This document shows positions 182-13,729 of a stretch of DNA of 30,073 nt, in pieces. The stretch is from the IMG/VR virus record IMGVR_UViG_3300042691_013854, positions 1-30,073 of that record. One strand, given 5' to 3'. The position numbers were made by a program, and so were the translations under genes. Origin of the DNA: a virus. Numbering within the stretch: position 1 is the first letter of the stretch; each line of letters starts with the position of its first letter. The notes under the pieces are model-generated. The model worked only from the letters and a program-made list of their open reading frames with translations, was not told where the DNA came from and made no database searches.

Positions 182-202
182 CGGGTCTGTTCGCGGTCGG
201 CT

Positions 203-632: not shown

Positions 633-660
633 GCCGACTTGGACAAATCCGAACGGATTT
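630..660. promoter_or_regulatory. Paired operators upstream of promoter copy 1
   Basis: CAAG-CCGA-CTTG (630-641) overlaps the -35. Next to it is the perfect palindrome AAATCCG-AA-CGGATTT (645-660). Both recur at the other promoters. Binding proteins are unknown; the HTH proteins of the left arm are candidates. Confidence 0.65.
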
Positions 661-722
661 CGCAAAATGCCGCCGCGCCGTCCCTAGCGCGCTTGGCCGA
701 CCGTGGCCGCGGGTAGGCCATG

Positions 723-2039: not shown

Positions 2040-2041
2040 CG

Positions 2042-2760: not shown

Positions 2761-2983
2761 CGGAATCCGCCTTCCTTTCAAAGCACGTCCAACCACGAAC
2801 CTCGGCGTAGTCCTCATCGGTGAAATAGCCGTGGCGGTGCTTTTGGCAAACCTCTCGGCGCGCCTCGTCCCTCTCTTCAATAAGCCCCCGTATGGCTTCC
2901 GCCGCATCTTTGCAAACATTGCCCGCGGGGTCGTCGTGTTCGCGATTGCAAAGCCTCGACAGCAATTCGGAAAGTTCAGGCAT
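2753..2983 (-). CDS. Small coiled-coil protein, paralogue of the 1818-2039 product
   Basis: A 76-aa protein opening MPELSELLSRLCNREHDDPA. It has a helical stretch CKDAAEAIRGLIEERDEARR followed by EVC, then YAEVRGWTCFE. The shared blocks with the 1818-2039 protein are in the same order and at similar spacing. Two conserved Cys residues, one in each block, could form a pair. The start overlaps the stop of the HTH gene upstream by 8 bases. Function unknown. Confidence 0.65.
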   Translation of the reverse strand: MPELSELLSRLCNREHDDPAGNVCKDAAEAIRGLIEERDEARREVCQKHRHGYFTDEDYAEVRGWTCFERKADSDA

Positions 2984-3290
2984 CGGAAGCCGCCTTCCTC
3001 CGAACGTTCGCGCGCCACGTCAGGCGTTCCGACCGCATATCGGCGCGCGCGTCGTACGACTGGCGTACGGTCAGGCTCGGGACGGAATGCCCGACCATTC
3101 GGCAAATCCGAATCATCGCCTCATCAGGGATCGGATACGCGCCCGACGCGTAGTTGGCTATCGTCTGAACCGACGCGCCGACCGCCGACGCGACGGTTCG
3201 GATTCCATGCGCGCGGATCGCCTTCGCAAGCGAACCCGCGGGGTCGATTTCCCAACTTACGCGCACGACTGGCGAGAACTTTTCTTCCAT
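2976..3290 (-). CDS. Cro/CI-like helix-turn-helix protein
   Basis: A 104-aa protein opening MEEKFSPVVRVSWEIDPAGS. Residues about 20-65 form an HTH: LAKAIRAHGIRTVASAVGAS then VQTIANYASGAYPIPDEAMI, like YdaS/Cro-type phage repressors that bind palindromic operators. A basic tail (SERLTWRANVRRKAASDA) follows. AAGGGAAAC lies a few bases before the ATG at 3290. Its place after the CsrA-like gene and before other small regulators suggests a role in early/late switching. It is a second candidate for the CAAG-N4-CTTG or AAATCCG palindromes (inference). Confidence 0.65.
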   Translation of the reverse strand: MEEKFSPVVRVSWEIDPAGSLAKAIRAHGIRTVASAVGASVQTIANYASGAYPIPDEAMIRICRMVGHSVPSLTVRQSYDARADMRSERLTWRANVRRKAASDA

Positions 3291-3301
3291 TGCGTTTCCC
3301 T

Positions 3302-3472
3302 TCAGGCGAACGCGCGGAGCAACGCGCGTCCCAAGTAGAACCAAAACAGGCACGAACCGACGAACAGCGCGGCAAGCACCGACACGGTAACGAACAGCGC
3401 GCATACCCAATACGCGAACCAAAGGAACCCCGACCACGTCGCATCTTCCGTTCGGCTATATCCGTTCAGCAT
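3302..3472 (-). CDS. Small membrane protein, two transmembrane segments
   Basis: A 56-aa protein too short for most ORF filters: MLNGYSRTEDATWSGFLWFA continuing through YWVCALFVTVSVLAALF and GSCLFWFYLGRALLRAF. It has two closely spaced hydrophobic segments rich in Trp and Phe, and a short acidic N-terminus. The Shine-Dalgarno AGGAAGGGGAAG lies inside the end of the CsrA-like gene, and the two genes overlap by 7 bases. It is probably an inner-membrane protein. Superinfection exclusion or lysis timing are possible roles, but neither can be shown from sequence. Confidence 0.7.
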   Translation of the reverse strand: MLNGYSRTEDATWSGFLWFAYWVCALFVTVSVLAALFVGSCLFWFYLGRALLRAFA

Positions 3473-3684
3473 CGCTTCCCCTTCCTAGCGTTTCCCGCCG
3501 CGCGCTGCGCGCGAATCTTCTCGGCGGTTTCGCCGCGCCAAATTTCGATTTCGCGCGGTAGGTCGAATGCCACGCGCACGATTTCGCGACCGCTGCGCCG
3601 CGCCACGTGGATCGTTCCAATCGGGTTTCCCTGACGGTCGGTCAGTTCGAAGACGGTCGGGCCGTTGCATTGCAGGACTAGCAA
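3466..3684 (-). CDS. CsrA/RsmE-like RNA-binding translational regulator
   Basis: Read from a TTG at 3684, this gives a 72-aa protein opening MLVLQCNGPTVFEL, close to the CsrA start (MLILTRRVGETLMI) and to CsrA length (60-70 aa). The second half, GREIVRVAFDLPREIEIWRG then ETAEKIRAQ, aligns with the CsrA stretch NQVRIGVNAPKEVSVHREE and the following helix, and keeps the arginine equivalent to CsrA Arg44. The arginine at position 6 is replaced by Cys, and there is an insertion of about 6 residues after strand 1. CsrA dimers bind GGA motifs in mRNA leaders. AAGGG lies six or so bases before the TTG. A longer ATG-started reading (3813) is unlikely because the extra segment has no protein-like composition and forms several hairpins. 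Confidence 0.7.
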   Translation of the reverse strand: MLVLQCNGPTVFELTDRQGNPIGTIHVARRSGREIVRVAFDLPREIEIWRGETAEKIRAQRAAGNARKGKRC

Positions 3685-3823
3685 GGCGCACCGCCCTTCG
3701 CGCGGGCGGGCGCGTGGCCCGCCCGCGCTTGGCGGACGTAGCGTCTTTCGGACGCTAGGTTCGGACGCCGCGTCCTGCGGCGGGTCCGCTCCGAACACGG
3801 AGTACGGGGACATTCTACGCGGT
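3685..3823 (-). promoter_or_regulatory. Structured leader of the CsrA-like gene
   Basis: About 139 noncoding bases between the upstream stop (3824) and the TTG start. Minus-strand hairpins, in order: CTCCG/CGGAG; CGCCGC-AGGAC-GCGGCG (3766-3782), whose loop carries GGA, the core CsrA target; AGCGTC-CGAAA-GACGCT (about 3739-3756); and a 12-bp perfect GC stem with 5-nt loop (3700-3728) abutting the Shine-Dalgarno. This would suit autoregulation by the CsrA-like protein (inference). Confidence 0.55.
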
Positions 3824-4366
3824 TCATTCGCTGCACTCCAAACGCGTTCGGGACGCGGAACCCGCCGCGGAGTCGCCCGCGGCCGCTTCGATTGTACCAA
3901 CTGTCAAGGCGGCATGGACGAACAGCACGGAGGAAATCGGCCATTCGTTCAGATTCGCGGGCAACGGACTAGCCGATATCCAACCGCGCGAACGGAGGGA
4001 CTGAACCGCGCGCCCGATGCGCGCGCGGTCCATCCGCGCCAGTTCCGCCAACGCGGCCGCGTGGTCGCGCGCCCGCTGTTGGGTCCAGTCGTCGCGCTGC
4101 GCCTTAGGCTTGGGCGTCGTGCGCGCGGCTTCGCGCTCTTCGCCCGCGTTCGCGATCCTGCGGTAATGCTCCAACAGTTCCGCCAGGCGGAACACGGTCG
4201 AGCCGTTCGACGCGCGGTAGTCGTCCACGGCGACGGCCAACCAACGTTGGTTGAGGGCCGACAGGCGGCGGACGGTCAGTTCCCGTTCCTCGGGCGTCGG
4301 TTCGTACCGCGGCCATAGGCCGTTGATACGCCGCCGAACTTCGTCCCAACTGGTCGCATCGTTCAT
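3824..4366 (-). CDS. Putative replication-module protein (possible helicase loader)
   Basis: A 180-aa protein opening MNDATSWDEVRRRINGLWPR. The N-terminal part (W-x-E-V...L-W-P-x-Y-x-P-T-x-E...L...L...V-x-D-Y-R-A...L-A-E-L) has the pattern seen in many phage proteins encoded just after a replication initiator, like the O/P pair of lambdoid phages. The C-terminal half is helical and Ala-rich, without a Walker motif. Its ATG overlaps the initiator stop (4363-4366), so the two are translationally coupled. The helicase-loader role rests on position and weak pattern only. Confidence 0.5.
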   Translation of the reverse strand: MNDATSWDEVRRRINGLWPRYEPTPEERELTVRRLSALNQRWLAVAVDDYRASNGSTVFRLAELLEHYRRIANAGEEREAARTTPKPKAQRDDWTQQRARDHAAALAELARMDRARIGRAVQSLRSRGWISASPLPANLNEWPISSVLFVHAALTVGTIEAAAGDSAAGSASRTRLECSE

Positions 4367-4833
4367 AGTCCGCCCCCCTTGGAACCCCTGCGCGCGCGCT
4401 CTTCTCTACTCTTCTCTTCTCTTCTCTTCTCTGGTGACGCGTCTAGCGTTACTTGACTGCCGCAACCAGTAACGCTAGACGCGTCACGCGTTCCCGAATC
4501 CCTGTAACGCCGTTGCCGACGCGCGCCGTTCGCGCGCGTCTTCGCCGTCTCGCCGTTGTGGTCGTTGAACCGCGGCAACACGCAATCCGCGCCGTCCACG
4601 GCCAACCAGTCAACCGCCGACATGGCGGCGGCGAACCCCGCGACGCCCGCCACGCGGTCCACGTCGGCCGCGCCGAACCAACGGATACGGCCGTCCGTGG
4701 AATGTTCGTCGGCGTACGACCAAACCGCGACGAGACAGCCGACCGCATGGGCGGGCGGTATGCCCGCGACCGACGCGATACGGAACACGCGCGGATCGGC
4801 GGACAGGTTTGTCCGTATCTTTATCCACGACAT
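4363..4833 (-). CDS. Phage replication initiator / replisome organiser
   Basis: A 156-aa protein opening MSWIKIRTNLSADPRVFRIA. It follows the pattern of phage replication proteins with an N-terminal winged-helix domain: W-I-K-I...D-P-R-V, then VGCLVAVWSYADEHSTDGRI, then V-A-G-V-A-G-F-A-A-A-M...W-L and L-P-R-F-N-D-H-N-G. The C-terminal third is basic and low-complexity. It opens a DNA origin in related systems, and in lambdoid phages the origin lies inside the initiator gene; here the 3' part contains an inverted repeat and a purine tract (see 4397-4487). That tract is encoded with AGA codons, unusual here. GGAAGGGG precedes the ATG. It overlaps the upstream gene by 13 bases. Confidence 0.7.
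   Translation of the reverse strand: MSWIKIRTNLSADPRVFRIASVAGIPPAHAVGCLVAVWSYADEHSTDGRIRWFGAADVDRVAGVAGFAAAMSAVDWLAVDGADCVLPRFNDHNGETAKTRANGARRQRRYRDSGTRDASSVTGCGSQVTLDASPEKRREEKSREERARRGSKGGGL
4397..4487. other. Candidate replication origin inside the initiator gene
   Basis: A 19-bp perfect inverted repeat (4434-4452 and 4469-4487, arms beginning GTGACGCGTC, 16-bp spacer) lies next to a pyrimidine/purine tract (about 4400-4432) with four tandem CTTCT units (4411-4430). It is in the 3' part of the initiator gene. Strand-asymmetric purine tracts beside iterons or dyads are typical of lambdoid-type origins. Function is inferred. Confidence 0.5.
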
Positions 4834-5201
4834 TTGCGCCCCTTCCCGCGGAGGAACCCGAACCCGCGCGTACGGCGTTCGCGTTCGCGCGCCTGGCGGA
4901 TATGCCGCACCGCGCGCGCCACGGTTTCGATGCGCCGCAACTCGCCCTGCAACGACCAAAGCACTTCCGCGAAACGCAGTTCCGCGCGCGTCAGACGGAC
5001 CATTCGGCCAATCGTGTTGACGGGTACGGACAGCGCGTTCGGCCGTAGGTCGAGCAACAGCCCGACGTACACGACCTGGAACGGCAAGCCGCTTTCCTTC
5101 CATACGTGCCGCGCCGCGTCCGCCGCCTCCGCGGCCGTGAACGGCCGCGGAGGGACGACGGAAGCGAACGCGGGCGACTCGTCAGAACAGGCCATCCGCA
5201 C
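4821..5201 (-). CDS. Hypothetical protein of the replication module
   Basis: A 126-aa protein opening MRMACSDESPAFASVVPPRP (an alternative ATG lies two codons later at 5195). The middle is helical with a hydrophobic core (GLPFQVVYVGLLLDLRPNAL, then RMVRLTRAELRFAEVLWSLQ). The C-terminus is very basic (ARERERRTRGFGFLRGKGRK). The layout fits a small nucleic-acid-binding protein, but I do not recognise it. It lies between the annealing protein (overlap about 14-20 bases) and the initiator (overlap 13 bases), so it is probably made with the replication proteins. Confidence 0.65.
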   Translation of the reverse strand: MRMACSDESPAFASVVPPRPFTAAEAADAARHVWKESGLPFQVVYVGLLLDLRPNALSVPVNTIGRMVRLTRAELRFAEVLWSLQGELRRIETVARAVRHIRQARERERRTRGFGFLRGKGRKCRG

Positions 5202-6039
5202 CGCCCTTCGGGTCGGGCGCGACCGCGTCGGCCGTCTCGTCGTGCGATAGGCGCGAAATCATCGGCAGTCGGTTCGCGCGCTCGGAGTAGGCGAACCGAA
5301 TCGGTTCGTTCACCCAATCGGCGCGCGCCGCGGGTAGGCCGACGTCCGACGCCGTCGCGGGCGATACGACGAACTGGCGGACTTCGCCGCCCGTCTCAAT
5401 GTCGGCCACGAACACGCCGTGTCCGTTCACGCTGCGTTCGGACACGTCATGCAGGAACCCGCGCGCTTCGATTGTCGGCCCCGCGGGTTCCGCCGCCTTG
5501 GGCGCGGCCGCGCGTTCGCGTACGGCCGCGTTCAGGTCGGGCGCATTGCCGCCGCGGATCGCTCGGACGCCGTGCGCGGTCGGATTCGCCTTGTCGTTTC
5601 GGCGGTCCATGTCCGCCTCCTCTTCGCGCGGCAACAACAACAGGTCGCGCAACCAGTAGGAAAGCGACGTGGTCAGCGCGCCCGCGAGTGCCTTGTCAAG
5701 CGGTCGGCCCTTTTCCGCAATGATCGCCCAAGGGACGTCCGCGTCGGTCAGCGTGTCGCCCGTCGCGCCTAGCGCGACTTCGAACGTTGACAGCACGAAC
5801 AGCCCGTCTTCGCTGATTCGCCACGAACGGCGGCGGGCGACGATGCCCGCCGACGACAGCGCGGCGCGGCAAGCCGAAATCATGCTTTCCGCCGACGCAT
5901 AGTTGTACTTGTGGAATTCGTTGCGCGCGTCCTTGGCGGCGAACTGGACCGCCGCTTGGGCGCGCACCAACCCGTCGTACACGTTGCGCGGCGCGGCTTC
6001 GGCCGCGGGTTCCACCGACTTGGTTTCATTCTTCGCCAT
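5182..6039 (-). CDS. erf: ERF-family single-strand annealing protein
   Basis: A 285-aa protein opening MAKNETKSVEPAAEAAPRNV. Residues about 20-150 match the ERF core: LVRAQAAVQFAAKDARNEFH, then YNYASAESMISACRAALSSA, then a later GRPLDKALAGALTTSLSYWL block ending LLLLPREEEADMD, which corresponds to the ERF pattern G-x-A-x-x-Y...L-L-x-L-P-x-E-x-E-D. ERF proteins form rings on single-stranded DNA and anneal complementary strands in phage recombination. The C-terminal half (proline/alanine linker, then a small beta-rich domain) is variable in the family. AGGAG precedes the ATG at 6039; upstream codons in frame are unlike protein. It pairs with the RecE-like nuclease next door. Confidence 0.8.
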   Translation of the reverse strand: MAKNETKSVEPAAEAAPRNVYDGLVRAQAAVQFAAKDARNEFHKYNYASAESMISACRAALSSAGIVARRRSWRISEDGLFVLSTFEVALGATGDTLTDADVPWAIIAEKGRPLDKALAGALTTSLSYWLRDLLLLPREEEADMDRRNDKANPTAHGVRAIRGGNAPDLNAAVRERAAAPKAAEPAGPTIEARGFLHDVSERSVNGHGVFVADIETGGEVRQFVVSPATASDVGLPAARADWVNEPIRFAYSERANRLPMISRLSHDETADAVAPDPKGGADGLF

Positions 6040-6844
6040 TGTTCGATTCTCCTCGGATTGCCCATTCAGGAATGCGGATAGGTTGGACCGTCCGCGGGTA
6101 GCCGTCCCAAACGCCAGTTTCCATGCAGCGCGCGTACTGCGCGCACAGCCGTTCCACGACGCCCGACATTGCGTCCACGTCGGCCATGTCGAGTTGGTAG
6201 ACGGCGACGCAGTACGGCGCGGACTTCTCAACCGCGACGAACGCGACGCTATCCACGTTGACGCCGTGACAGGCGAGAACCGCGCGATAGAACGCCGCCT
6301 GAACGTGGTAGCCGTATTCCCCGCACGAACGCGCGAAGGCGCGCGGCGCGGCGGAAACGGTCGTCTTCACGTCCAACAGGATTCCGCTAGCCGACATCGC
6401 GTCAACCTTGCACTTCGCGGGGACGCCCGCGATTTCGCCGCGGAACACGGCTTCGCGCACGTCGCAAATGTCGAGCAACGCCGCGGCCGCGTCGTGGCGC
6501 GACACGCTGTCGCGCATCATGGCGACGCACTCCGCTTCGTCGGGGTCGAGCAACGCGACGCCCTCGGGCAGACTGGCGGCGAACTCCGCGGCCGCTTCCT
6601 TGCCCGCCTTCGTGCGGCGGTCGAACTTCGGCGCGACGCGGAATTCCGCCGCGTATTCGCTCGGGCGCAGCAGCGCGCAATGCAGCGCGCGCCCGACGCG
6701 CAGCGCGTCCGACTCGTCGGCGTCGGCGCGGGACATTTCCGCCAGGACGTGCGCGGGCGTCGCGCTCCAAAGCCGCTTGACGTACGACGCGCGGACGCCC
6801 TTCAGCGCGTGGTATTTCGATTCGCTCATGTATTCGGGACGCAT
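6026..6844 (-). CDS. RecE-like (exonuclease VIII) 5'-3' DNA exonuclease
   Basis: A 272-aa protein opening MRPEYMSESKYHALKGVRAS. It has the PDDEXK layout of the RecE C-terminal nuclease: an N-terminal S-x-S-x-L/Y-H helix, GRALHCALLRP (about 51-61), a Glu (about 137) followed by CKVDA with Asp148, then ILLDVKTT with Asp158 and Lys160, then the Q-x-x-x-Y element (QAAFY, 182-186). The enzyme would resect one strand at double-strand ends and hand single strands to the ERF protein, as in RecE/RecT or lambda Red. The ATG at 6844 follows GAGGAAC. The C-terminus overlaps the ERF start by 14 bases, so the pair is coupled. Confidence 0.8.
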   Translation of the reverse strand: MRPEYMSESKYHALKGVRASYVKRLWSATPAHVLAEMSRADADESDALRVGRALHCALLRPSEYAAEFRVAPKFDRRTKAGKEAAAEFAASLPEGVALLDPDEAECVAMMRDSVSRHDAAAALLDICDVREAVFRGEIAGVPAKCKVDAMSASGILLDVKTTVSAAPRAFARSCGEYGYHVQAAFYRAVLACHGVNVDSVAFVAVEKSAPYCVAVYQLDMADVDAMSGVVERLCAQYARCMETGVWDGYPRTVQPIRIPEWAIRGESNNGEE

Positions 6845-6846
6845 CG

Positions 6847-6969
6847 TCAGTTCCTCGGGGTGCGGCGGATCGAACGAAGGCGCGCGTACCGCGCCGCGCG
6901 GTACAGTTGCCACGACCCCGCGGCAAGCGGAATCAGCCAAAGCAAGTCAAAGGTAGGGGAACCGTCCAT
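6847..6969 (-). CDS. 40-aa membrane-anchored small protein
   Basis: A 40-aa ORF opening MDGSPTFDLLWLIPLAAGSW with a single hydrophobic segment (residues 7-20) and a highly basic cytosolic tail (RAARYARLRSIRR). The ATG at 6969 lies 8 bases after GGAG of a leader that matches the repeated cassette leader. It stops 2 bases before the RecE-like start, so it is first in the recombination operon. Function unknown. Confidence 0.6.
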   Translation of the reverse strand: MDGSPTFDLLWLIPLAAGSWQLYRAARYARLRSIRRTPRN

Positions 6970-7040
6970 CGTGAACACTCCGTCCGCGCGTCGGCCGCGC
7001 GTGGCCCGCCGCGTCATGCGGCTTCCGTTCCATCGGCGCG
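6970..7040 (-). promoter_or_regulatory. Decayed copy of the promoter-leader module (copy 6)
   Basis: Minus strand retains both leader hairpins, GCCGC-ATGAC-GCGGC (7008-7022) and GCGCG-GCCGA-CGCGC (6986-7000), then GGACGGAG. Upstream it keeps GCGCCGATGGAAC (7027-7039), the spacer sequence of the intact copies. The -10 and leader start are deleted and no TTGACA or operator remains, so it probably no longer starts transcription itself. Confidence 0.6.
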
Positions 7041-7070
7041 ACGCGCGCCGACCCTTGAAATTTGGAAGAC

Positions 7071-7096
7071 GCCGCGCGGCCGTCAAGCCGCGCGGC
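7071..7096 (-). terminator. Hairpin after the 7103-7660 gene (weak or leaky terminator)
   Basis: GCCGCGCGGC (7071-7080) pairs with GCCGCGCGGC (7087-7096), 6-nt loop, just after the stop at 7103. On the minus strand it is followed by GTCTTCCAAATTT, not a good U-tract. Leaky termination here could let the strong divergent promoter feed the recombination operon. Confidence 0.5.
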
Positions 7097-7102
7097 GCGT
7101 GG

Positions 7103-7660
7103 TCATTGGAACTCGCGACCCGCCAGGATGCGGGATTGCAGCGCGTCGAACTGGACGACGTGCGTACGCGTAAGGCGGTACGCCAACTGGACGCGCGCGC
7201 GCTTGCGCTTCCACTCGGACACGGCGCGCAAGCCGCCTTGGTTGTCCGCCACGAACCCGCCCTGAACGATGGACGCGTGGCGGGCGGCGCAGACGTAGAA
7301 CGCCGTTCCGCTCGGCGCGTTCGCCACGACGTCGCGCACGAACTGCGCGTAGGTCGGAAATCCCGCGGGCGTCGCGTGAGCGACTGAGAATCCAAGCATG
7401 GCGAACGTGTATGCCGCTTCGAAGTTGTACGCGCCACGGATACGGCGCGCGTCCGACCACGACACAAACGCGGCCGTCGTGGATGCGGTCAACTGGCGCG
7501 CGCGATGATGAGCGATAAGCAACGCGGCCAGGTCGGTCGTACAACCAGTCGCCGCGCTGATTGCGGCGGGTACGCACCATTTGTTCGGGTTCGCGCCGCC
7601 ATGCGGCGGGGTGATGATGCGCGAAGGCGCATCGGTCGGCGTATAAACTCGGACGGCCAT
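7103..7660 (-). CDS. Cysteine-peptidase-like protein, first early gene
   Basis: A 185-aa protein opening MAVRVYTPTDAPSRIITPPH. It has the layout of papain-like or C39-like peptidases: NKWCVPAAISAATG with Cys29 at the start of a helix, then after about 100 residues GTAFYVCAARHASIVQGGFV with His128, followed by ADN (139-140). These could form a Cys-His-Asp/Asn triad. No signal peptide or cell-wall-binding domain is present, so an intracellular substrate is more likely than peptidoglycan (inference). It is alone between its own copy of the repeated promoter and a hairpin, at the strongest divergent promoter. Such a position suits a protein that attacks or neutralises a host factor. Function unproven. 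Confidence 0.55.
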   Translation of the reverse strand: MAVRVYTPTDAPSRIITPPHGGANPNKWCVPAAISAATGCTTDLAALLIAHHRARQLTASTTAAFVSWSDARRIRGAYNFEAAYTFAMLGFSVAHATPAGFPTYAQFVRDVVANAPSGTAFYVCAARHASIVQGGFVADNQGGLRAVSEWKRKRARVQLAYRLTRTHVVQFDALQSRILAGREFQ

Positions 7661-7718
7661 TGGTTCGACTCCGTGGCGCGTCGGCCGCGCCTTGCCCGCC
7701 GCGTCATGCGGCTTCGGT
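7661..7718 (-). promoter_or_regulatory. Structured 5' leader, copy 2
   Basis: Minus strand: hairpin GCCGC-ATGAC-GCGGC (7698-7712), then GCGCG-GCCGA-CGCGC (7676-7690), then CACGGAGTCG and the ATG. Hairpin 1 differs in sequence from the plus-strand copies, but both arms changed together. Confidence 0.75.
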
Positions 7719-7746
7719 ACTGTAGCGGTATCGGCTAGCCTGTCAA
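7719..7746 (-). promoter_or_regulatory. Sigma-70 promoter, copy 2 (divergent, leftward)
   Basis: Minus strand: TTGACA (7741-7746), 16-bp spacer, TACAGT (7719-7724). It drives the 7103-7660 gene and probably, by read-through, the whole left operon. Confidence 0.85.
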
Positions 7747-7798
7747 GCCTACTTGGACGAATCTTGGAAATCCGCTCGGATTTGTCCAAGCCTACTTG
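7744..7798. promoter_or_regulatory. Shared operator region between divergent promoters
   Basis: CAAG-CCTA-CTTG occurs twice (7744-7755 and 7787-7798), each overlapping a -35. Midway lies the perfect palindrome AAATCCG-CT-CGGATTT (7768-7783). One bound protein could control both arms at once. Confidence 0.7.
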
Positions 7799-7823
7799 AC
7801 AGGCGCGCCGATGGAACTACAGT
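7796..7823 (+). promoter_or_regulatory. Sigma-70 promoter, copy 3 (divergent, rightward)
   Basis: TTGACA (7796-7801), 16-bp spacer GGCGCGCCGATGGAAC, TACAGT (7818-7823). It drives the 7886-8104 gene. Confidence 0.85.
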
Positions 7824-7885
7824 ACACACGTCCGACGAACGGACAGGCCACGCGCGGCCGACGCGCGACGAACGGAGTAGACGCC
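7824..7885 (+). promoter_or_regulatory. Structured 5' leader, copy 3
   Basis: Hairpin GTCCG-ACGAA-CGGAC (7830-7844) starts close to the expected transcription start. Hairpin GCGCG-GCCGA-CGCGC (7852-7866) follows, then CGAACGGAG and the ATG at 7886. ACGAACGGA occurs twice, in hairpin 1 and at the Shine-Dalgarno. Confidence 0.75.
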
Positions 7886-8104
7886 ATGACGAAGGAAGCC
7901 GCCGCCAGGATCGTTGACGGACTGAACACGACGCAGCGCATTTCGCTCCGAATCATGGTCGAGGAAACCCGCCTTGGTTCGTTCGCCGCGGGCGCGGCGG
8001 TCGTGCTTGGTTCGAACTTCCGCGACCTCTTCGCGTCGGTCAACGGCGCGGCCATGACCGATTGCGAAATCCGCCGCGCGGTCTACCGCGCCCTTGGTTC
8101 CTGA
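7886..8104 (+). CDS. Small hypothetical cassette protein
   Basis: A 72-aa protein opening MTKEAAARIVDGLNTTQRIS. It is predicted to be mostly helical: a first amphipathic helix (EAAARIVDGL), a second (ISLRIMVEETRLG), a hydrophobic turn (SFAAGAAVVLG), and a last helix with CEIRRAVYRAL. It may be a compact three-helix protein. I do not recognise it. It is the only gene of its cassette, with its own promoter, leader and terminator. Small, acidic or neutral single-gene cassettes next to a strong phage promoter are often host-takeover or anti-defence proteins (inference). Confidence 0.7.
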   Translation: MTKEAAARIVDGLNTTQRISLRIMVEETRLGSFAAGAAVVLGSNFRDLFASVNGAAMTDCEIRRAVYRALGS

Positions 8105-8130
8105 ACTGGATCAAACACGGCCACGCGCTA

Positions 8131-8164
8131 CCGCCGCCCGAAGTCGGGCGGCGGTTTCATTTTT
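8131..8164 (+). terminator. Terminator of the 7886-8104 cassette
   Basis: CCGCCGCCCG-AAGT-CGGGCGGCGG (8131-8154) followed by TTTCATTTTT. The same hairpin with the same upstream flank CCACGCGCTA recurs at 9775-9808. Confidence 0.9.
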
Positions 8165-8167
8165 GCG

Positions 8168-8198
8168 AAATCCGCTTGGATTTGTCCAAGTGTACTTG
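8168..8198. promoter_or_regulatory. Paired operators upstream of promoter copy 4
   Basis: AAATCCG-CT-TGGATTT (8168-8183, one mismatch from symmetry) and CAAG-TGTA-CTTG (8187-8198) overlapping the -35. Confidence 0.65.
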
Positions 8199-8223
8199 AC
8201 AGGCGCGCCGATGGAAGTAAAGT
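8196..8223 (+). promoter_or_regulatory. Sigma-70 promoter, copy 4
   Basis: TTGACA (8196-8201), 16-bp spacer, TAAAGT (8218-8223). It drives the three-gene cassette 8286-9137. Confidence 0.85.
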
Positions 8224-8285
8224 ACCCATGTCCGACGAACGGACAGGCCAGGCGCGGCCGACGCGCGACGAACGGAGTAGAACGA
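8224..8285 (+). promoter_or_regulatory. Structured 5' leader, copy 4
   Basis: Hairpins GTCCG-ACGAA-CGGAC (8230-8244) and GCGCG-GCCGA-CGCGC (8252-8266), then CGAACGGAG before the ATG at 8286. Confidence 0.75.
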
Positions 8286-8669
8286 ATGAATCGCAACCGT
8301 ACCGCTGACCTGACCGCCGACGCGCTTTCGAAGATTGAGCGCGCCCACGCCGTGGACGTCGGGCCGATCCTCAACACGTGGCTTTCTAGGCAGCGCGCAG
8401 CGTGTTCGGCAATGGCCGACCGCGACGAAGCCGCGCGCATCTGCCGCGCCGCGCGCAAGGCGTACGACCGCGCGGAAAGGGAATGGTTCGTCGCCAAGAC
8501 GGCCGACCGCGCGCGCCAGTTGCGCGACGCGGGCGACGACCGCGCGGCTACCATTGCCGTCGCGCTGTCGTGCTGCGTCGCGGTCAACGCGAAGACGTCC
8601 ACCATTGCGACCCTGTACCGCGAAGCGGGCTACATGATCCAAGGCGGTGCAAGCAATGCCACGGCCTGA
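8286..8669 (+). CDS. Helical hypothetical cassette protein
   Basis: A 127-aa protein opening MNRNRTADLTADALSKIERA. It is almost wholly helical and rich in Ala and Arg, with DEAARICRAARKAYDRAERE in the middle and a Cys-Cys pair later (ALSCCVAVNAKT). A hydrophobic C-terminal stretch TLYREAGYMIQGGAS follows. I do not recognise it. First gene of a three-gene cassette. Its stop overlaps the next start by 14 bases. Confidence 0.7.
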   Translation: MNRNRTADLTADALSKIERAHAVDVGPILNTWLSRQRAACSAMADRDEAARICRAARKAYDRAEREWFVAKTADRARQLRDAGDDRAATIAVALSCCVAVNAKTSTIATLYREAGYMIQGGASNATA

Positions 8670-8868
8670 ATGCGTCGTCCTGCGCCCCAACCCCGCTTGC
8701 CGCGACTGCCGCGGCCGCGGCTACGTTCGCGAACGCCACGCGGCGGGACTGGTCGAGGACTTGGAATGCGACTGCGCGTTTAACGGCCTGACGCCTGAAC
8801 AGGCCGAAGCGGTCGAGGTTGGCGCGTACCTGATTATTTGCCCTGACGACGGAGGAAACAACCAATGA
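8656..8868 (+). CDS. DnaJ-type zinc-finger-like small protein
   Basis: A 70-aa protein opening MPRPECVVLRPNPACRDCRG. Residues 15-45 read CRDCRGRGYVRERHAAGLVE then DLECDCAF. CxxCxGxG followed by CxC is the half-motif of DnaJ-type zinc fingers and could hold one zinc ion. The C-terminal part (PEQAEAVEVGAYLIICPDDG) is acidic. Such single-finger proteins are common in phages without known roles. The ATG at 8656 was preferred over the GTG at 8647 because AAGGCG is then correctly spaced. Confidence 0.65.
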   Translation: MPRPECVVLRPNPACRDCRGRGYVRERHAAGLVEDLECDCAFNGLTPEQAEAVEVGAYLIICPDDGGNNQ

Positions 8869-9137
8869 CCGACGCCACGCAACCTACGCGCCCGATCCAC
8901 GTTTGGGCGGCTATCACGAAACTGCGCGGCATTCCCGCGGGGTACGTCGTGCAACTGCCGCCGCCCTACCGCGATTCGGTTTGGTCGCTGAACGGCCGCA
9001 AATGGTTCCACGTGCGGCATACGTGCAACGTCGTCACGGGCGTCGTGTTCGACCTGGACGACGTGTTCACGCCGCCGCTAGGTTGGACCGTCCATTTCGT
9101 GGACGGTCCGCTGTCCCCCGAGAATGCCGCGCCATGA
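8865..9137 (+). CDS. Hypothetical cassette protein
   Basis: A 90-aa protein opening MTDATQPTRPIHVWAAITKL. The sequence alternates like a beta barrel: GYVVQLPPPYRDSVWSLNGR, then KWFHVRHTCNVVTGVVFDLD, then GWTVHFVDGPLS. It is rich in Trp, Val and Pro. I do not recognise it. GGAGGAAAC lies just before the ATG, which overlaps the previous stop (ATGA at 8865). Last gene of its cassette, followed by a terminator at 9228. Confidence 0.7.
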   Translation: MTDATQPTRPIHVWAAITKLRGIPAGYVVQLPPPYRDSVWSLNGRKWFHVRHTCNVVTGVVFDLDDVFTPPLGWTVHFVDGPLSPENAAP

Positions 9138-9227
9138 CGTCGGCGGAAGCCGATATGCTTCCGACTCTTCTCTTGCCGCGGCGGCGCGGTTGCCATTGCC
9201 GCGCCGTCGCTTTCTTTCCATCCCCCG

Positions 9228-9265
9228 CGCCGCCCCGCGTTTCGACTCCGCGGGGCGGCGTTTTT
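9228..9265 (+). terminator. Terminator of the 8286-9137 cassette
   Basis: A 12-bp perfect GC stem (9228-9239 with 9249-9260, 9-nt loop) followed by TTTTT. The 90 bases between the stop and this hairpin hold no gene that I can support. Confidence 0.9.
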
Positions 9266-9267
9266 GG

Positions 9268-9298
9268 AAATTCGTTCGGATTTGTCCAAGTCGGCTTG
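9268..9298. promoter_or_regulatory. Paired operators upstream of promoter copy 5
   Basis: AAATTCG-TT-CGGATTT (9268-9283, one mismatch from symmetry) and CAAG-TCGG-CTTG (9287-9298) overlapping the -35. Confidence 0.65.
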
Positions 9299-9323
9299 AC
9301 AGGCGCGCCGATGGAATTACAGT
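9296..9323 (+). promoter_or_regulatory. Sigma-70 promoter, copy 5
   Basis: TTGACA (9296-9301), 16-bp spacer, TACAGT (9318-9323), driving the 9384-9752 gene. The -35 starts about 30 bases after the terminator U-tract of the cassette before it. Confidence 0.85.
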
Positions 9324-9383
9324 ACACACGTCCTACGAACGGACAGGCCACGCGCGGCCGACGCGCTAGACGGAGTCGAGCAA
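9324..9383 (+). promoter_or_regulatory. Structured 5' leader, copy 5
   Basis: Hairpin 1 GTCCT-ACGAA-CGGAC (9330-9344; outer four pairs kept), hairpin 2 GCGCG-GCCGA-CGCGC (9352-9366), then GACGGAGTCG and the ATG at 9384. Confidence 0.75.
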
Positions 9384-9752
9384 ATGGAACTTATCGAACA
9401 CGGACCCGCGACCGCCGAAGCCGCTGTCAACCACGCCGCAAACACGCTTCGCGGGCGCGCGCTCGTCGCCCTGAACGCACTTCGCGCGGGCGGCGTGTTC
9501 ACGCGCCAACTTGAATTCAGCGTGTACACGCGTCGCGAACAGTTCCGTACGCGCCTGTTCGTGGACGGCGTCGCCGTCCGCGGCGTCGGGGAATCGACCC
9601 TTGCCGAACTGCGCGCGCTTGGCCTGACGCGCCCGCGCGCCATGTTCCGTACGTCGCGCTACTCGTCGTCTTGGGTTTGCGTCTGCGCGCCAGTTACGGC
9701 CGACGAGTCGGCCGCGAACGCCGCGACGTGGTCGGAACTGGACTACCGCTAA
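9384..9752 (+). CDS. Hypothetical cassette protein
   Basis: A 122-aa protein opening MELIEHGPATAEAAVNHAAN. The N-terminal half suggests a winged helix: a helix (TAEAAVNHAANTLRGRALVA), then LNALRAGGVFTRQLEFSVYT with a strand pair (RLFVDGVAVRGV), then ESTLAELRALGLTRPRAMFR. The C-terminus is rich in Ser and Trp (YSSSWVCVCAPVTADESAAN). It may bind DNA, but the family is not recognised. It is the only gene of its cassette, with its own promoter, leader and terminator, and is the last unit before the late operon. Confidence 0.7.
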   Translation: MELIEHGPATAEAAVNHAANTLRGRALVALNALRAGGVFTRQLEFSVYTRREQFRTRLFVDGVAVRGVGESTLAELRALGLTRPRAMFRTSRYSSSWVCVCAPVTADESAANAATWSELDYR

Positions 9753-9774
9753 ACGCGCGGGATACCACGCGCTA

Positions 9775-9808
9775 CCGCCGCCCGAAGTCGGGCGGCGGTT
9801 TCCTTTTT
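9775..9808 (+). terminator. Terminator of the 9384-9752 cassette
   Basis: CCGCCGCCCG-AAGT-CGGGCGGCGG followed by TTTCCTTTTT. Nearly identical to 8131-8164 including flanks. Confidence 0.9.
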
Positions 9809-9820
9809 GCCGATTGCCGC

Positions 9821-9847
9821 GGGTCGGAATTCCGAGTGTTCCGACCC
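9821..9847. promoter_or_regulatory. Inverted repeat upstream of the late operon
   Basis: GGGTCGGAA (9821-9829) and TTCCGACCC (9839-9847), perfect 9-bp arms with a 9-bp spacer. It lies in the gap between the last early terminator and the first late gene, so it is a candidate operator for late transcription. Confidence 0.45.
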
Positions 9848-9853
9848 TACGAA

Positions 9854-9893
9854 CCGCGCGCCGCGCGACTGGCGTTCAGTCCGCGGCGCGCGG
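9854..9893. repeat. Large stem-loop before the late operon
   Basis: Arms CCGCGCGCCGCG (9854-9865) and CGCGGCGCGCGG (9882-9893) are a perfect 12-bp pair. Inside, GACT/AGTC extends the stem past a one-base bulge. It has no U-tract on either side, so it is not a typical terminator. A weak promoter-like pair (TTCAGT-17-TAGACA) overlaps its right arm; I would not rely on it. Confidence 0.5.
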
Positions 9894-9932
9894 TCGCTAG
9901 ACATAGGGACATTTCCCGCCGATCATGCCCGC

Positions 9933-10280
9933 ATGGCTAGGAAATCGCGAACCAAGGGCGCGGCGGGCGAACGCGAAGCCGCCGCGCGTTTCGAACAGGC
10001 GACGGGCATTCCCGCGCACCGCGCCGCGCAGCGTTGCGGAAAGCACGGGGACGCCGACTTGGCCGTTCCCGAACCGCTGCACTTGGAAACCAAGCGTATC
10101 GCGCGCATCGCGGCCGTCCGCTACCTGGAGCAAGCCGAGAGGGAAGCACGGGAAGGGCGCGTCCCCGTGGTCGTGATGCGCCAGGACAGGGATACCGAAT
10201 GGGTCGTCATGCTTCGGCTAGACAACGTCGCAAGGTTCGCGGAAATCATTTCCGAAGCAAGGAACCGCCCGTGTCTGTAA
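9933..10280 (+). CDS. Holliday-junction-resolvase-like PDDEXK nuclease
   Basis: A 115-aa protein opening MARKSRTKGAAGEREAAARF. The order of motifs fits small archaeal-type or phage Hjc-like resolvases: KG-x-x-GE near the start (Glu about 13), ATGIPAHRAAQRCGKHGDAD with the catalytic Asp, LHLETKRIARI (E-x-K), then AEREAREGRVPVVVMRQDRD and EWVVMLRLD. It would cut branched DNA before packaging or during recombination. It is the first gene of the rightward late operon, about 125 bases after the last early terminator, and overlaps the next gene by 10 bases. Another restriction-like nuclease role is possible. Confidence 0.65.
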   Translation: MARKSRTKGAAGEREAAARFEQATGIPAHRAAQRCGKHGDADLAVPEPLHLETKRIARIAAVRYLEQAEREAREGRVPVVVMRQDRDTEWVVMLRLDNVARFAEIISEARNRPCL

Positions 10281-10537
10281 TCCCGTTCCCCGCCGTGTTC
10301 GACCGCGCCATAAACATTTCCCAACTCGTCGCGCTCGTCTGCGGCTTGGCGTGGATCGGGTCCGAGGCGGGCCGACGCGACGAACGGTTAGCGGTTACCA
10401 TCGGGAAGGTAAACGAACTGGCCGAAATCGTTCAGGACTTGACCAAGGCGCAGATAGCGGGCGCGACCCGCGACGCCGCTAGCGAACGCGAGTTGGAATC
10501 ACTCCGTACCCGAATCGAAAGGTTGGAAACCAAATGA
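10271..10537 (+). CDS. Membrane-anchored coiled-coil protein (lysis region)
   Basis: An 88-aa protein from a GTG at 10271 opening MSVIPFPAVFDRAINISQLV. It has one hydrophobic segment (ISQLVALVCGLAWIG, about 16-30) and then a long charged helix (RRDERLAVTIGKVNELAEIV to RIERLETK). An N-terminal anchor with a periplasmic coiled coil is the plan of inner-membrane spanins and of some holin-associated proteins. AAGGAAC lies 8 bases before the GTG. Its stop is overlapped by the next ATG (10534). Confidence 0.6.
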   Translation: MSVIPFPAVFDRAINISQLVALVCGLAWIGSEAGRRDERLAVTIGKVNELAEIVQDLTKAQIAGATRDAASERELESLRTRIERLETK

Positions 10538-10743
10538 ACTCGTCTTGGCGCACAACGACCGCGGGCATTGCCGCAATCGTCGCCGCAGTCGGAACCGCCG
10601 TCGCCGCGCTGTTCGACGCCGACCCCGCGACCCTTCCCGATTGGGGCGCGGTCGCCGCGGCCGTGCTTGCGGGCATCGGCCTGATTGCCGCCCGAGACAA
10701 CCGCGTTACGTCCGAACAGGCGGGCGCGACCCCTGCGCCGTGA
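10534..10743 (+). CDS. Putative holin
   Basis: A 69-aa protein opening MNSSWRTTTAGIAAIVAAVG. Two hydrophobic segments (TTAGIAAIVAAVGTAVAALF and WGAVAAAVLAGIGLIAA) flank a short acidic loop (DADPATLPD), and a polar tail follows. Size, topology and the K/R-T-T-x-A-G-I start are like the small phage holin-type proteins often found beside spanins. A holin would form the inner-membrane hole that times lysis. No endolysin is adjacent, so the assignment rests on topology and context. Confidence 0.6.
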   Translation: MNSSWRTTTAGIAAIVAAVGTAVAALFDADPATLPDWGAVAAAVLAGIGLIAARDNRVTSEQAGATPAP

Positions 10744-10910
10744 TTGCGTTCCTAGCCGCGTTCCTTCGGGAACTCTTCGATTCGATCCTAGCGCGCTACG
10801 GCGACAGGATCGGGAAACGGACTGCCGACGATGCGAAACGCCCTACGCTTGATTTGCGCGGCATCCGTCGCCGTGTTCGCGAACGGTTGCAGTCGAACCG
10901 TCCTAGTTAG
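10740..10910 (+). CDS. Small protein overlapping the lipoprotein gene (possible inner spanin)
   Basis: A 56-aa protein from a GTG at 10740 that overlaps the previous stop as GTGA. It opens MIAFLAAFLRELFDSILARY, a short hydrophobic or amphipathic N-terminal helix, then a very basic helix (KRPTLDLRGIRRRVRERLQS). The last 80 bases also encode the start of the lipoprotein in another frame, as in Rz/Rz1 nested spanin pairs. It is short for an inner spanin, so the role is tentative. Confidence 0.5.
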   Translation: MIAFLAAFLRELFDSILARYGDRIGKRTADDAKRPTLDLRGIRRRVRERLQSNRPS

Positions 10911-11064
10911 CGACGGGACGCCTATGCGCGTCGGTCCCGACTGCCGCGCCCGCGTCTACACTTGGGACGGCACGACGTGGAATCTGTCCGCAAACCGTGT
11001 CGAGGTTCCCGAGGGTTGGTATCTGTTGCCGCCTTCGGTCGTTGACGACCCAAGCGACCAGTAG
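10831..11064 (+). CDS. Outer-membrane lipoprotein (Rz1-like, possible outer spanin)
   Basis: A 77-aa protein opening MRNALRLICAASVAVFANGC: a basic n-region, a hydrophobic core and a lipobox ending in Cys20 (A-N-G-C). The mature part is beta-rich (RTVLVSDGTPMRVGPDCRAR, then VYTWDGTTWNLSANRVEVPE) and ends with LLPPSVVDDPSDQ. Lipidation predicts outer-membrane anchoring in a Gram-negative host. The gene starts inside the preceding gene in a different frame, which supports a spanin-type pair. Confidence 0.65.
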   Translation: MRNALRLICAASVAVFANGCSRTVLVSDGTPMRVGPDCRARVYTWDGTTWNLSANRVEVPEGWYLLPPSVVDDPSDQ

Positions 11065-11066
11065 CC

Positions 11067-11954
11067 ATGTACCCGAACCCGCGCTACCTGACCACGCTCG
11101 ACCCGAACACGCTACCGCTAGGCGCGTCGCTTGGGATCGACGCTAGCGGAAACGTCGTCGGCGCGACCGTGACCGAATTCACCAGTTCGGGGACGTTCTA
11201 CAAATCGACCGCGGCCACGCTTATATGCGTCTACGGGTTGGGCGCGGGCGCGGGCGGCGGCGGCGGCTTCCGAAACAACACGGCGGGCGGTTCCGCGACT
11301 GGCGGCGGCGGCGGTTCGGGCGGCGGCGGTTGTTGGGTATTCCTCCAAGGGTCGCACGTCGCGACGTCGGAAACCATTACCATCGGCGGCGGCGGTTCTA
11401 GCGGTACGGGCGGAACCACGGCGGGCAACGGCGGCGGCGGCGGCGCGACGCTGTTCGGTTCAATCAGTTGGACGGGCGGCGCGGGCGGTCAAGGCGGCGC
11501 GAACACGGGTACGCGTACGGGCGGTACGCCCCCGACCATATTGGGAGTTACCTACGGCAATGGCGGGAATGCTTCCATAGGCGCGGGCGCAGCGGGTCGC
11601 GTGGCGTGGTTGCACGGTGCGGGCGGCGGCGCGGGCGCGGGGCAGAATGTCGCGGTAACGGCCAACACGGGCGGCGCGGGCGGCGGATTGGGCGTCGCCA
11701 CGGCGAACCTAGGCGGCGGCGGTACGGGCGGCGGCGTCGGCGTCAGCGGCACGGCGGGCGCGCTCGTCACGGACGAATGGCGCGGCGCGGGGACTGGCGG
11801 CGGCGGCGGCGGGTCGGCCATTTCCGCGCCCGCGGGCGACGGCGGCAACGGCATACGCGGTTCGGGCGGCGGCGGCGGCGGCGGTGCATTCGCTGCGCGC
11901 GCGGGAAACGGCGGCGTCGGCGGCGACGGATACGTCTTGGTTATCCAAACGTGA
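11067..11954 (+). CDS. Glycine-rich adhesin / tail fibre-like protein
   Basis: A 295-aa protein opening MYPNPRYLTTLDPNTLPLGA. A short N-terminal region (1-40) leads to a beta start, EFTSSGTFYKSTAATLICVY, then more than 200 residues of Gly-rich tracts (GAGAGGGGGF, GGGGGSGGGG and similar) split by short strands, closing with GGVGGDGYVLVIQT. This is the pattern of glycine-rich tail domains and of gp38-type adhesins, where polyglycine helices pack as a sandwich and loops bind the receptor. It is probably a receptor-recognition protein. The place before terminase rather than with the tail genes is unusual. The start follows the lipoprotein stop by 2 bases. Confidence 0.65.
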   Translation: MYPNPRYLTTLDPNTLPLGASLGIDASGNVVGATVTEFTSSGTFYKSTAATLICVYGLGAGAGGGGGFRNNTAGGSATGGGGGSGGGGCWVFLQGSHVATSETITIGGGGSSGTGGTTAGNGGGGGATLFGSISWTGGAGGQGGANTGTRTGGTPPTILGVTYGNGGNASIGAGAAGRVAWLHGAGGGAGAGQNVAVTANTGGAGGGLGVATANLGGGGTGGGVGVSGTAGALVTDEWRGAGTGGGGGGSAISAPAGDGGNGIRGSGGGGGGGAFAARAGNGGVGGDGYVLVIQT

Positions 11955-12133
11955 AATACGCAGTCCTCCAAGGCGCAACCGTGGTTAACGTCGTAGTTTG
12001 GGACGGCGTCGCGACATGGAACCCGCCAGTCGGTACGGTAGCGGTGCAACTCGACCCGTCCGAATGGGTCGATATTGGCGCGCAGTACGACGCGAACGCG
12101 TCGCCGCGGTTTACGGCGGTCGAGGATGCGTAA
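11951..12133 (+). CDS. Small tail-fibre-associated protein
   Basis: A 60-aa protein from a GTG at 11951 overlapping the adhesin stop (GTGA). It opens MKYAVLQGATVVNVVVWDGV, followed by TWNPPVGTVAVQLDPSEWVD and IGAQYD. The pattern Y-A-V-x-x-G-x-V-V-N-V-V-V-W-D-G then I-G-x-x-Y-D is common in short phage proteins next to tail fibre genes, including the N-termini of some tail-fibre assembly proteins. A chaperone or accessory role for the Gly-rich protein is likely from coupling (inference). Confidence 0.6.
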   Translation: MKYAVLQGATVVNVVVWDGVATWNPPVGTVAVQLDPSEWVDIGAQYDANASPRFTAVEDA

Positions 12134-12527
12134 GCCGCGCCGAGCAACGAAGGCGAAGCAACCGCCCGACGTCGGGGGGAAGGGGGACGGGCCGTCCCTA
12201 CCCGCGCCCATCCAACCCGTCGCCCTCATCGAACCGCGGCACGAACGCGCGGGACTGGCCCTTATCGCGCGCGCGATCCGCGGCGGTTGGCGCGTCCCTC
12301 CGCACGTGCTAGACACCGTGCCGCAAATGGTCGCGGCAATCGCGGCTAACTCCGATTCCGAACGCGAACGCCTTCGCGCGGCCGAAGTGTTGATAGCAAT
12401 GGAACGCGCGAATACCGACGCGCTGTCCATCGCGGACAAATGCGAACGGCTAGACGGCGGCGGCGCGACCGAGCGGATGGAACTTCAGCCGATCACGCTG
12501 CGTCCAGGCGGCGGCGGTAGCGCGTGA
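12126..12527 (+). CDS. terS: Putative small terminase subunit
   Basis: A 133-aa protein opening MRKPRRATKAKQPPDVGGKG. A basic N-terminal tail precedes helices: RAGLALIARAIRGGWRVPPH, then TVPQMVAAIAANSDSERERL, then RAAEVLIAMERANTDALSIA, and a Gly-rich C-terminus. It lies directly before the large subunit with a GTGA overlap, where the DNA-recognition subunit normally is. The length is at the short end for the family. The identification is mainly positional, since small subunits diverge strongly. Confidence 0.6.
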   Translation: MRKPRRATKAKQPPDVGGKGDGPSLPAPIQPVALIEPRHERAGLALIARAIRGGWRVPPHVLDTVPQMVAAIAANSDSERERLRAAEVLIAMERANTDALSIADKCERLDGGGATERMELQPITLRPGGGGSA

Positions 12528-13729
12528 CCGTCGTTCAGCCGCCCGCGTTGCCCGCCATGTATCCGCGGCAGTACGACGCGATTTGCGACCCCGCGCGGTT
12601 CGTCGTGATAGAAGCAAGCACGAAGTCGGGCAAGACGGCGGGTTGCCTGTTGTGGCTTTTCGCGCGCGCGTGGAACAGCCGTAGCGGCGGCGCGTATTGG
12701 TGGATCGCGCCTACCTTCCACGTAACCAAGACGGTCGGATACCTACGGCTAGTCGCCATGCTGCGGCAAGCCGACCCGAACGGGCGGACGTGGCGCGCGA
12801 ACGACTCTGAATTGTTCGTGGAACTGGCGAACGGCGCGCGGCTTTGGTTCAAATCCGCGGACAACCCCGACACGCTCTACGGCGACGACGTGTCCGCGGC
12901 GGTCGTGGACGAAGCGACGCGTTGCACCGAAGACGCATGGAACGCGGTACGCTCGACCCTGACCGCGACGCGCGGGCCGTGCCGAATCATCGGCAACGTA
13001 AAGGGCCGCAAAAACTGGGTATACCGCCTAGCGCGCATGGCGGAATCGGGCGCGCCAAACATGGCATACCATCGCCTGACGGCGTACGACGCGGTTGCGG
13101 GCGGCATCCTCGACCCCGAGGAAATCGAAGACGCGCGCCGCGTACTGCCCGACAACGTGTTCCGCGAACTGTACCTAGCGGAACCGACCGACGACGGCGC
13201 GAACCCGTTCGGCTTGGACGCTATCCGCGACTGCGTCGCCCCGCTGTCCGATGCCGCGCCAGTCGCGTACGGCGTCGATTTGGCGAAGTCGCACGATTGG
13301 ACCGTGATTTGCGGCGTGGACGCCGCGGGCCGCGTCTGTCGGCTCGACCGCTTCCAATCCGATTGGGGCGCGACCCGCGAACGCGTGTCGCGGACGGTCG
13401 GGAACGCCTTGGCCTACATTGATTCGACGGGCGTAGGCGACCCCATTTGCGAAGACATTGCGCGCGTCTGCCGCAACGCGGAGGGTTGGAAGTTCACTTC
13501 GTCAAGCAAGCAACAACTCATGGAAGGGTTGGCCGCGGCCATACAGTCGCGCGAAATCCGAATTCCCGCGGGTTGGTTGCAGTCTGAATTAGAGTCGTTC
13601 GGTTTCCGATACCTGAACGGGCGGGTAAGTTACGAAGCACAATCGGGCCACGACGACGGCGTTTGCGCGTTGGCGTTGGCCCTGGCGGCGAAGCGACGGC
13701 ATCGGCCGTTTATCCTAAAGGTTGTATGA
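12524..13729 (+). CDS. terL: Terminase large subunit
   Basis: A 401-aa protein from a GTG at 12524, opening MTVVQPPALPAMYPRQYDAI. The ATPase half has a Walker A-like loop EASTKSGKTAG (30-40), then SAAVVDEATR with Asp129-Glu130 as Walker B, and a coupling region (TRGPCRIIGNVKGR). The nuclease half (RNase H-like) has YGVDLAKSHDWTV with the first catalytic Asp near 254, DSTGVGDPICED, and GHDDGVCALALAL near the end. It cuts and pumps the genome into the prohead through the portal. At 401 aa it is a compact but apparently complete enzyme. Confidence 0.9.
   Translation: MTVVQPPALPAMYPRQYDAICDPARFVVIEASTKSGKTAGCLLWLFARAWNSRSGGAYWWIAPTFHVTKTVGYLRLVAMLRQADPNGRTWRANDSELFVELANGARLWFKSADNPDTLYGDDVSAAVVDEATRCTEDAWNAVRSTLTATRGPCRIIGNVKGRKNWVYRLARMAESGAPNMAYHRLTAYDAVAGGILDPEEIEDARRVLPDNVFRELYLAEPTDDGANPFGLDAIRDCVAPLSDAAPVAYGVDLAKSHDWTVICGVDAAGRVCRLDRFQSDWGATRERVSRTVGNALAYIDSTGVGDPICEDIARVCRNAEGWKFTSSSKQQLMEGLAAAIQSREIRIPAGWLQSELESFGFRYLNGRVSYEAQSGHDDGVCALALALAAKRRHRPFILKVV

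Follow-up and report, generated by a model that had tools for sequence, protein, structure and literature searches.

A covarying hairpin and pseudoknot leader heads portable gene cassettes in an uncultured phage group

We analysed the virus record IMGVR_UViG_3300042691_013854 over its whole length of 30,073 bases (the window), which is 64% GC and looks complete. Five copies of a module combining operators, a sigma70-type promoter, and a structured leader RNA precede genes in this genome. The original prediction had described five promoters sharing TTGACA, a 16-bp spacer, and a -10 box of TACAGT, TAGAGT, or TAAAGT; all five were found where it had placed them and with this make-up. They were the top-scoring sigma70-type sites within positions 1-12600, where 8 sites were detected versus 1.3 expected, and between 12 and 30 kb sigma70-type promoters did not rise above the chance level. 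The common operators claimed upstream were present as well: TTGTCCAAGN4CTTGACA overlaps the -35 box at all five promoters, and 6 matches with three or fewer mismatches were obtained versus 0.07 by chance.

Module A (562-660, minus strand) consists of the palindrome AAATCCGNNCGGATTT (645-660), the operator (627-646), the promoter (605-632), and a leader made of hairpin 1 (584-598) and a pseudoknot (562-582). In module B (7676-7783, minus strand), the same elements lie at 7768-7783, 7741-7760, 7719-7746, 7698-7712, and 7676-7696, respectively, and the palindrome is common to the divergent module C (7768-7866, plus strand; operator 7782-7801, promoter 7796-7823, hairpin 1 7830-7844). The pseudoknot of module C is formed by stem 1 (7846-7848 with 7857-7859) and stem 2 (7852-7856 with 7862-7866). 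Also on the plus strand are module D (8168-8266; palindrome 8168-8183, operator 8182-8201, promoter 8196-8223, hairpin 1 8230-8244, pseudoknot 8246-8266) and module E (9268-9366; palindrome 9268-9283, operator 9282-9301, promoter 9296-9323, hairpin 1 9330-9344, pseudoknot 9346-9366), in which the closing pair of hairpin 1 is mismatched. The three plus-strand copies make up a 115-nt direct repeat with 84-93% identity.

The leader had been read as two hairpins present in five copies. Both structures proved to be real and a leader follows all five promoters, but the second structure is an H-type pseudoknot, in which the linker GGC pairs with GCC inside the next GCCGA loop, and the exact second hairpin occurs at six places, the sixth at 6986-7000 (minus strand). 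Hairpin 1 has two stem forms in the window, GTCCG/CGGAC and GCCGC/GCGGC, the latter in module B. The pseudoknot is built from stem 1, in which 3-4 bp join linker and loop, stem 2, of 5-6 bp, and loop 3, which is GA or GAA. When 1.2 Mb of related loci were scanned structurally for a hairpin 1 and, after it, a linker able to pair with the next loop, 56 distinct places were identified, compared with 5 in the control, one first-order Markov sequence. Single matches elsewhere in the collection scan were set aside; most of them were not recovered by a covariance model. To avoid selection by structure, modules were also chosen by operator, promoter, and start site alone, and the leader was present in 51 of the 52 modules in this set.

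We next aligned 41 distinct leaders, in which 98.0% of cells were paired versus 73.7% in shuffles, and the covariation was 0.556 versus 0.149, with none of 500 shuffles reaching as high. Two-sided changes were observed at all 12 pairs, and slid partners were only 18-50% paired. This count took two of the three stem-1 pairs, since the automatic alignment splits the third. Among 67 distinct leaders taken from 20 records, 66 kept the full stem 1, and loop 3 was always GA or GAA; the parsing of these leaders itself favours a paired stem 1, and the totals therefore lean towards structure. Three of the 67 (CGG:CCG twice and GGT:ACC in L110) came from the structural scan and the others through the promoter or a covariance model free of stem 1. 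Stem 1 took the forms GGC:GCC, GGGC:GCCC, GCC:GGC (L013), ACC:GGT (L016), GGT:ACC (L105 and L110), CGG:CCG (L112 and L117), and GGC:GCU. In four records, GGGC:GCCC was accompanied by a loop 3 lengthened to GAA. The same leaders contained 23 different hairpin-1 stems and 29 loops. Several stem-1 types occur within one genome in L013 and L016, which argues that shape rather than sequence matters. Because compensatory changes are found at every pair, including the joint expansion of stem 1 to GGGC:GCCC, selection appears to act on the RNA, and it is well supported by sequence comparison that the leader is a real, selected RNA structure.

A search of the whole window against Rfam at gathering cut-offs gave no match, and the E-value mode gave sub-threshold matches alone. 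Among the latter, a weak match to a plant-virus pseudoknot was judged to be chance, because the matched span does not include the linker upstream, which covaries with the loop. No phage leader built in this way came up in literature searches. The leader thus appears to be a previously undescribed phage RNA element.

Hairpin 1 begins at the 7th nucleotide past the -10 box; of 51 modules, 49 have G there and 2 have A. Because transcription usually initiates at this position, the predicted first nucleotide of the transcript is also that of hairpin 1, and a closed hairpin is expected at the very 5' end of the RNA. The leader covers ~55-65 nt from the expected start to AUG, with 2-8 nt separating the end of stem 2 from the Shine-Dalgarno site and 13-19 nt separating it from AUG.

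The sixth copy of the second hairpin belongs to leader F (6986-7022, minus strand), where hairpin 1 and the pseudoknot are accompanied by a perfect GC hairpin upstream, and the -35 and -10 boxes are lost. Behind it lies an open reading frame for a 40-aa putative membrane protein (6847-6969, minus strand), whose counterpart in L013 has an intact module with a promoter. Promoterless leaders were also observed at ~2256 (minus strand) in L112 and ~392 (minus strand) in L117, both with a CGG:CCG stem 1 and directly after a strong GC hairpin between genes. Leader F and these two share the arrangement of a leader after a strong GC hairpin. A candidate seventh module at 3921-3830 (minus strand) was rejected; it lies within a coding gene and no -10 box stands at the right place. 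Here an operator-like TCGTCCATGCCGCCTTGACA and, after it, a pseudoknot-like GGG-TTC-CGCGT-CCCGA-ACGCG precede an ATG, and the site is probably chance or a relic.

Each module had been expected to drive one to three small unrecognised genes, mostly closed by terminators. Strong terminators with a U tract were found after cassettes A, C, D, and E, and none was found after the first gene behind module B. Cassette A encodes an unrecognised protein of 113 aa (203-544, minus strand; terminator 156-182, minus strand), an ortholog of which lies behind a module in L016. The first gene after module B (7103-7660, minus strand) encodes an unrecognised protein of 185 aa that by eye alone looks like a C39 peptidase. 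The notion of a purely accessory set did not hold, because the main leftward operon, which includes the exonuclease VIII-like and ERF genes, stands behind module B as well. The 72-aa product of cassette C (7886-8104, plus strand) has a predicted four-helix fold (pLDDT 90) and belongs to a 5-member family behind modules; its terminator (8130-8155) has an 11-bp stem and a U tract. Cassette D (8286-9137, plus strand) contains three genes (8286-8669, 8647-8868, and 8865-9137) and a terminator at 9178-9210. Cassette E (9384-9752, plus strand; terminator 9774-9799) encodes an unrecognised 122-aa protein with an alpha/beta prediction, a member of the most widespread cassette family (7 members). An identical 26-nt terminator hairpin ends cassettes C (8130-8155) and E (9774-9799), and another repeated terminator recurs among relatives; terminators may therefore travel with cassettes too.

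Pfam and PHROGs gave no significant assignment for the window cassette proteins C, D, and E, and fold searches against PDB with proteins C and E gave no match below E 0.1. When 30 cassette proteins were scanned with Pfam, 29 were without a family; the sole match was an L007 protein with GNAT and ABC/AAA domains. The PHROGs scan yielded three families with one cassette member each, and two of these matches were the same L007 protein. PADLOC detected no defence family among the tested cassette proteins except motif-level ATPase matches in this L007 gene, although it covers defence rather than counter-defence systems and is thus a weak test for anti-defence genes. The L007 gene (7688-8881, minus strand) lies in that relative's cassette D and encodes a 397-aa P-loop ATPase and GNAT protein (phrog_11143). 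By eye, the protein is possibly a Mom-like DNA-modification protein, which would fit counter-restriction.

Whether the module is confined to this genome was also checked, and it was found in ~20 related viral records, with up to 11 copies per record. The genes behind the 51 modules fall into 28 families, ten of which have more than one member, and 19 of 28 cassettes end in a terminator ahead of the following module, versus a 3.3% background. The module that precedes gene D in L007 is a hybrid: its upstream part and promoter match window module C, whereas from the leader onward it matches window module D. Cassette C is absent there, and the arrangement indicates a crossover within the module. 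Similarity is lower between leaders of orthologous genes from distant genomes (0.46-0.67) than among the leaders of the window (0.87), which suggests that copies within a genome are homogenised. The ERF/exonuclease pair of the phage itself could carry out such exchange. With at least 28 gene families behind the module, frequent terminators, and exchange within the module, the view of a multiplied, portable expression cassette is upheld; the parts of the overall interpretation that fell are the second hairpin, the accessory-only set, and a promoter at every leader. In the distant record of L041, two leaders stand behind what by eye seems to be another promoter and operator type with their structure kept, and the RNA therefore seems to outlive the operator. 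In L131, from the same record, hairpin 1 lies 6 nt behind GATGAT/CATGAT boxes, and another operator-like sequence, ATCATCGG...CCGATGAT, is present.

An exact 69-bp direct repeat at both ends of the window (1-69 and 30005-30073) indicates that the genome, of about 30,004 bp, is either circular or terminally redundant. An endonuclease gene and genes for terminase, portal, protease, and capsid run rightward from 9.9 kb; those running leftward from 7.7 kb encode an exonuclease VIII-like protein, an ERF recombinase, and two HTH proteins (2042-2536 and 2976-3437, minus strand). A late-gene protein (19196-20371, plus strand) combines methyltransferase and glycosyltransferase-like domains. The closest terminase relatives are environmental viral contigs; the closest in a genome (55% identity) is from a Bryobacterales MAG (metagenome-assembled genome; Acidobacteriota), which is without the leader. 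Named phages had no near-identical DNA to the window, and their terminase relatives were below 60% identity.

We propose that the modules are autonomous expression cassettes, probably early, with a leader that shields the transcript from decay and insulates the ribosome site, under a shared operator; in our judgement, the case for this reading is about evenly balanced. Each cassette would comprise operators, a sigma70-type promoter, the structured leader, a Shine-Dalgarno site, 1-3 small genes, and usually a terminator. A repressor or activator, a DNA-binding protein of phage or host, probably controls all copies through the shared operator. Transcription would start from the sigma70-type promoters at the first base of hairpin 1, as their spacing predicts, and hairpin 1 and the pseudoknot would then fold, as the covariation supports. 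The 5'-terminal hairpin would deny pyrophosphohydrolase and 5'-end-dependent nucleases a single-stranded 5' end, and the pseudoknot would act as a second roadblock and separate the ribosome site from any coding sequence. Such insulation would make the expression of whatever gene sits behind the leader predictable, and transcription is predicted to end after 1-3 genes at the terminators. The near-identical modules would also serve as joints for homologous recombination that swaps cassettes and keeps copies within a genome alike. It has been established for host genes that structured 5' ends hinder RppH and RNase E, and the Bacillus subtilis enzyme requires unpaired 5' nucleotides (PMC3997798). 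A role of shape and position alone is favoured because the stems, most loops, and the stem-1 sequences vary, whereas position and shape are fixed and stem types coexist in a genome. More tentatively, and with the doubts prevailing, the leader may represent a new class of phage RNA, in which a 5' hairpin and a minimal H-type pseudoknot cap interchangeable early genes against 5'-end decay without sequence-specific partners, a counterpart of the nuclease-blocking pseudoknots of viral RNAs.

Several points weigh against decay shielding. The main difficulty is that promoterless leaders start no transcript, and a function purely at the 5' end fails there unless the RNA is cut; these leaders would be easier to reconcile with a role in translation or with cleavage of the RNA upstream of them. 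One copy (L109) carries GCA, which breaks one stem-1 pair. Plain folding gave no unusual stability (z about -0.7 to +0.4), a measure that is not informative here, and plain folds of some copies choose the stem-1 hairpin over stem 2, which is compatible with a two-state switch. The pseudoknot is itself a prediction, as are the start sites, timing, and half-lives. Of three candidate functions of the leader, namely a decay shield, a protein-bound translational operator, and antitermination, we favour the first.

The fact that promoterless leaders still precede genes speaks for the translational operator, in which a phage or host protein would bind the pseudoknot beside the Shine-Dalgarno site and repress or boost all cassettes as a gp32-like regulon. 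The short distance from the pseudoknot to the Shine-Dalgarno site and AUG and the invariant GA of loop 3 agree with this idea, and a 5' pseudoknot in T4 gene 32 mRNA is bound by gp32 (PMC3014915). However, there seems to be little for a protein to recognise by sequence, given the variation in hairpin 1, loop 1, and both stems and the presence of several stem-1 types in a single genome; this idea also gives no reason for a hairpin at +1, and a candidate protein was not found. We regard this explanation as unlikely, though it deserves serious attention. Put-like processive antitermination is rather improbable. The nascent two-part RNA would bind polymerase so that terminators are ignored and transcripts from C, D, and E reach the late genes, which need another route if no sigma70-type promoter above chance lies in 12-30 kb, and the leader is, like putL, directly behind promoters with two structured parts (PMC9378689). 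However, the cassettes end in strong terminators of their own immediately ahead of the following promoter (19/28), an arrangement that would serve no purpose under constant suppression, and the put study reports specific contacts and conserved bases and mentions no pseudoknot, whereas here the stems and most loops vary freely. A bistable switch or small-ligand riboswitch, with the stem-1 and stem-2 hairpins as alternatives, is suggested by minimum-energy folds of three window copies, which prefer the linker-loop hairpin to stem 2. In most relatives, however, the 5-6 mostly G-C pairs of stem 2 far outweigh a 3-bp stem 1, neither alternative as read hides the Shine-Dalgarno site or forms a terminator, and no conserved ligand pocket is seen, making such a switch very improbable. 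That the leader is a passenger, a repeat kept as a recombination joint whose RNA fold has no function, would agree with exchange inside the module and the resemblance of copies within a genome but is largely refuted, because covariation at every pair, including the GGGC:GCCC co-expansion, requires selection on the RNA.

The leader can serve as a search key, each gene behind it being a candidate early host-takeover or counter-defence gene of an uncultured phage group, and its compact covarying pseudoknot joins a small set of known phage leader RNAs. It raises the question of whether phages protect their early mRNAs from host RNA decay by a structured cap at +1; were this true, the 60-nt leader could be used as a portable part wherever stable, insulated expression is wanted.

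Among known systems, HK022 put RNA is likewise a two-part structured RNA at the start of early phage transcripts, and putL consists of two stem-loops in ~70 nt just downstream of PL (PMC9378689). By contrast, put has a conserved sequence, one left and one right copy, and no mention of a pseudoknot, whereas here terminators close the units. Instead of two stem-loops in ~70 nt of conserved sequence, our leader has a 5-6 bp hairpin and a 3+5 bp pseudoknot with free stem sequences. Nor do the leaders, as read, contain the boxA-like CGCTCTT of lambdoid nut sites, in which boxA precedes a boxB stem with a pentaloop bound by N, and their loops and stems vary. A hairpin at the transcript 5' end is also found in the stabilising stem-loops of ompA and papA, in which we know of no pseudoknot. 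These belong to host genes, are not multiplied, and have had their stabilisation measured, whereas stabilisation by the phage leader is our inference (PMC3997798). The T4 gene 32 leader shares an H-type pseudoknot upstream of a phage ribosome site, a feature supported here by covariation of stems 1 and 2, but it serves a single gene, with the pseudoknot 67 nt upstream and an A+U-rich operator, whereas the present one lies 13-19 nt upstream, precedes many genes, and follows a 5'-terminal hairpin (PMC3014915). In the portion of the source drawn on here, the early regulatory sequences of archaeal viruses similarly place one conserved strong promoter region before many unrelated small, mostly single-gene units, but with TATA/BRE promoters and no structured leader in that description; those units have been shown to be expressed early and some of their genes to counter defence, whereas the phage cassettes are known from sequence (PMC11065993). 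Likewise, as far as the available sections of the two sources go, the start-associated sequence (SAS) of Cluster K mycobacteriophages is 13 bp long and sits at the start codon, and the extended SAS (ESAS) is a promoter with a 15-17 bp inverted repeat; both are described with no +1 hairpin or pseudoknot (PMC3203893, PMC11373665). In the same sections, SAS/ESAS resemble our modules in having several copies per genome before small genes, a SigA-like promoter, and an inverted repeat, in following gene families, and in a consensus that differs between subgroups (PMC3203893, PMC11373665). The window modules have a promoter and a palindrome, and their likeness to ESAS is drawn from those descriptions rather than from consensus sequences.

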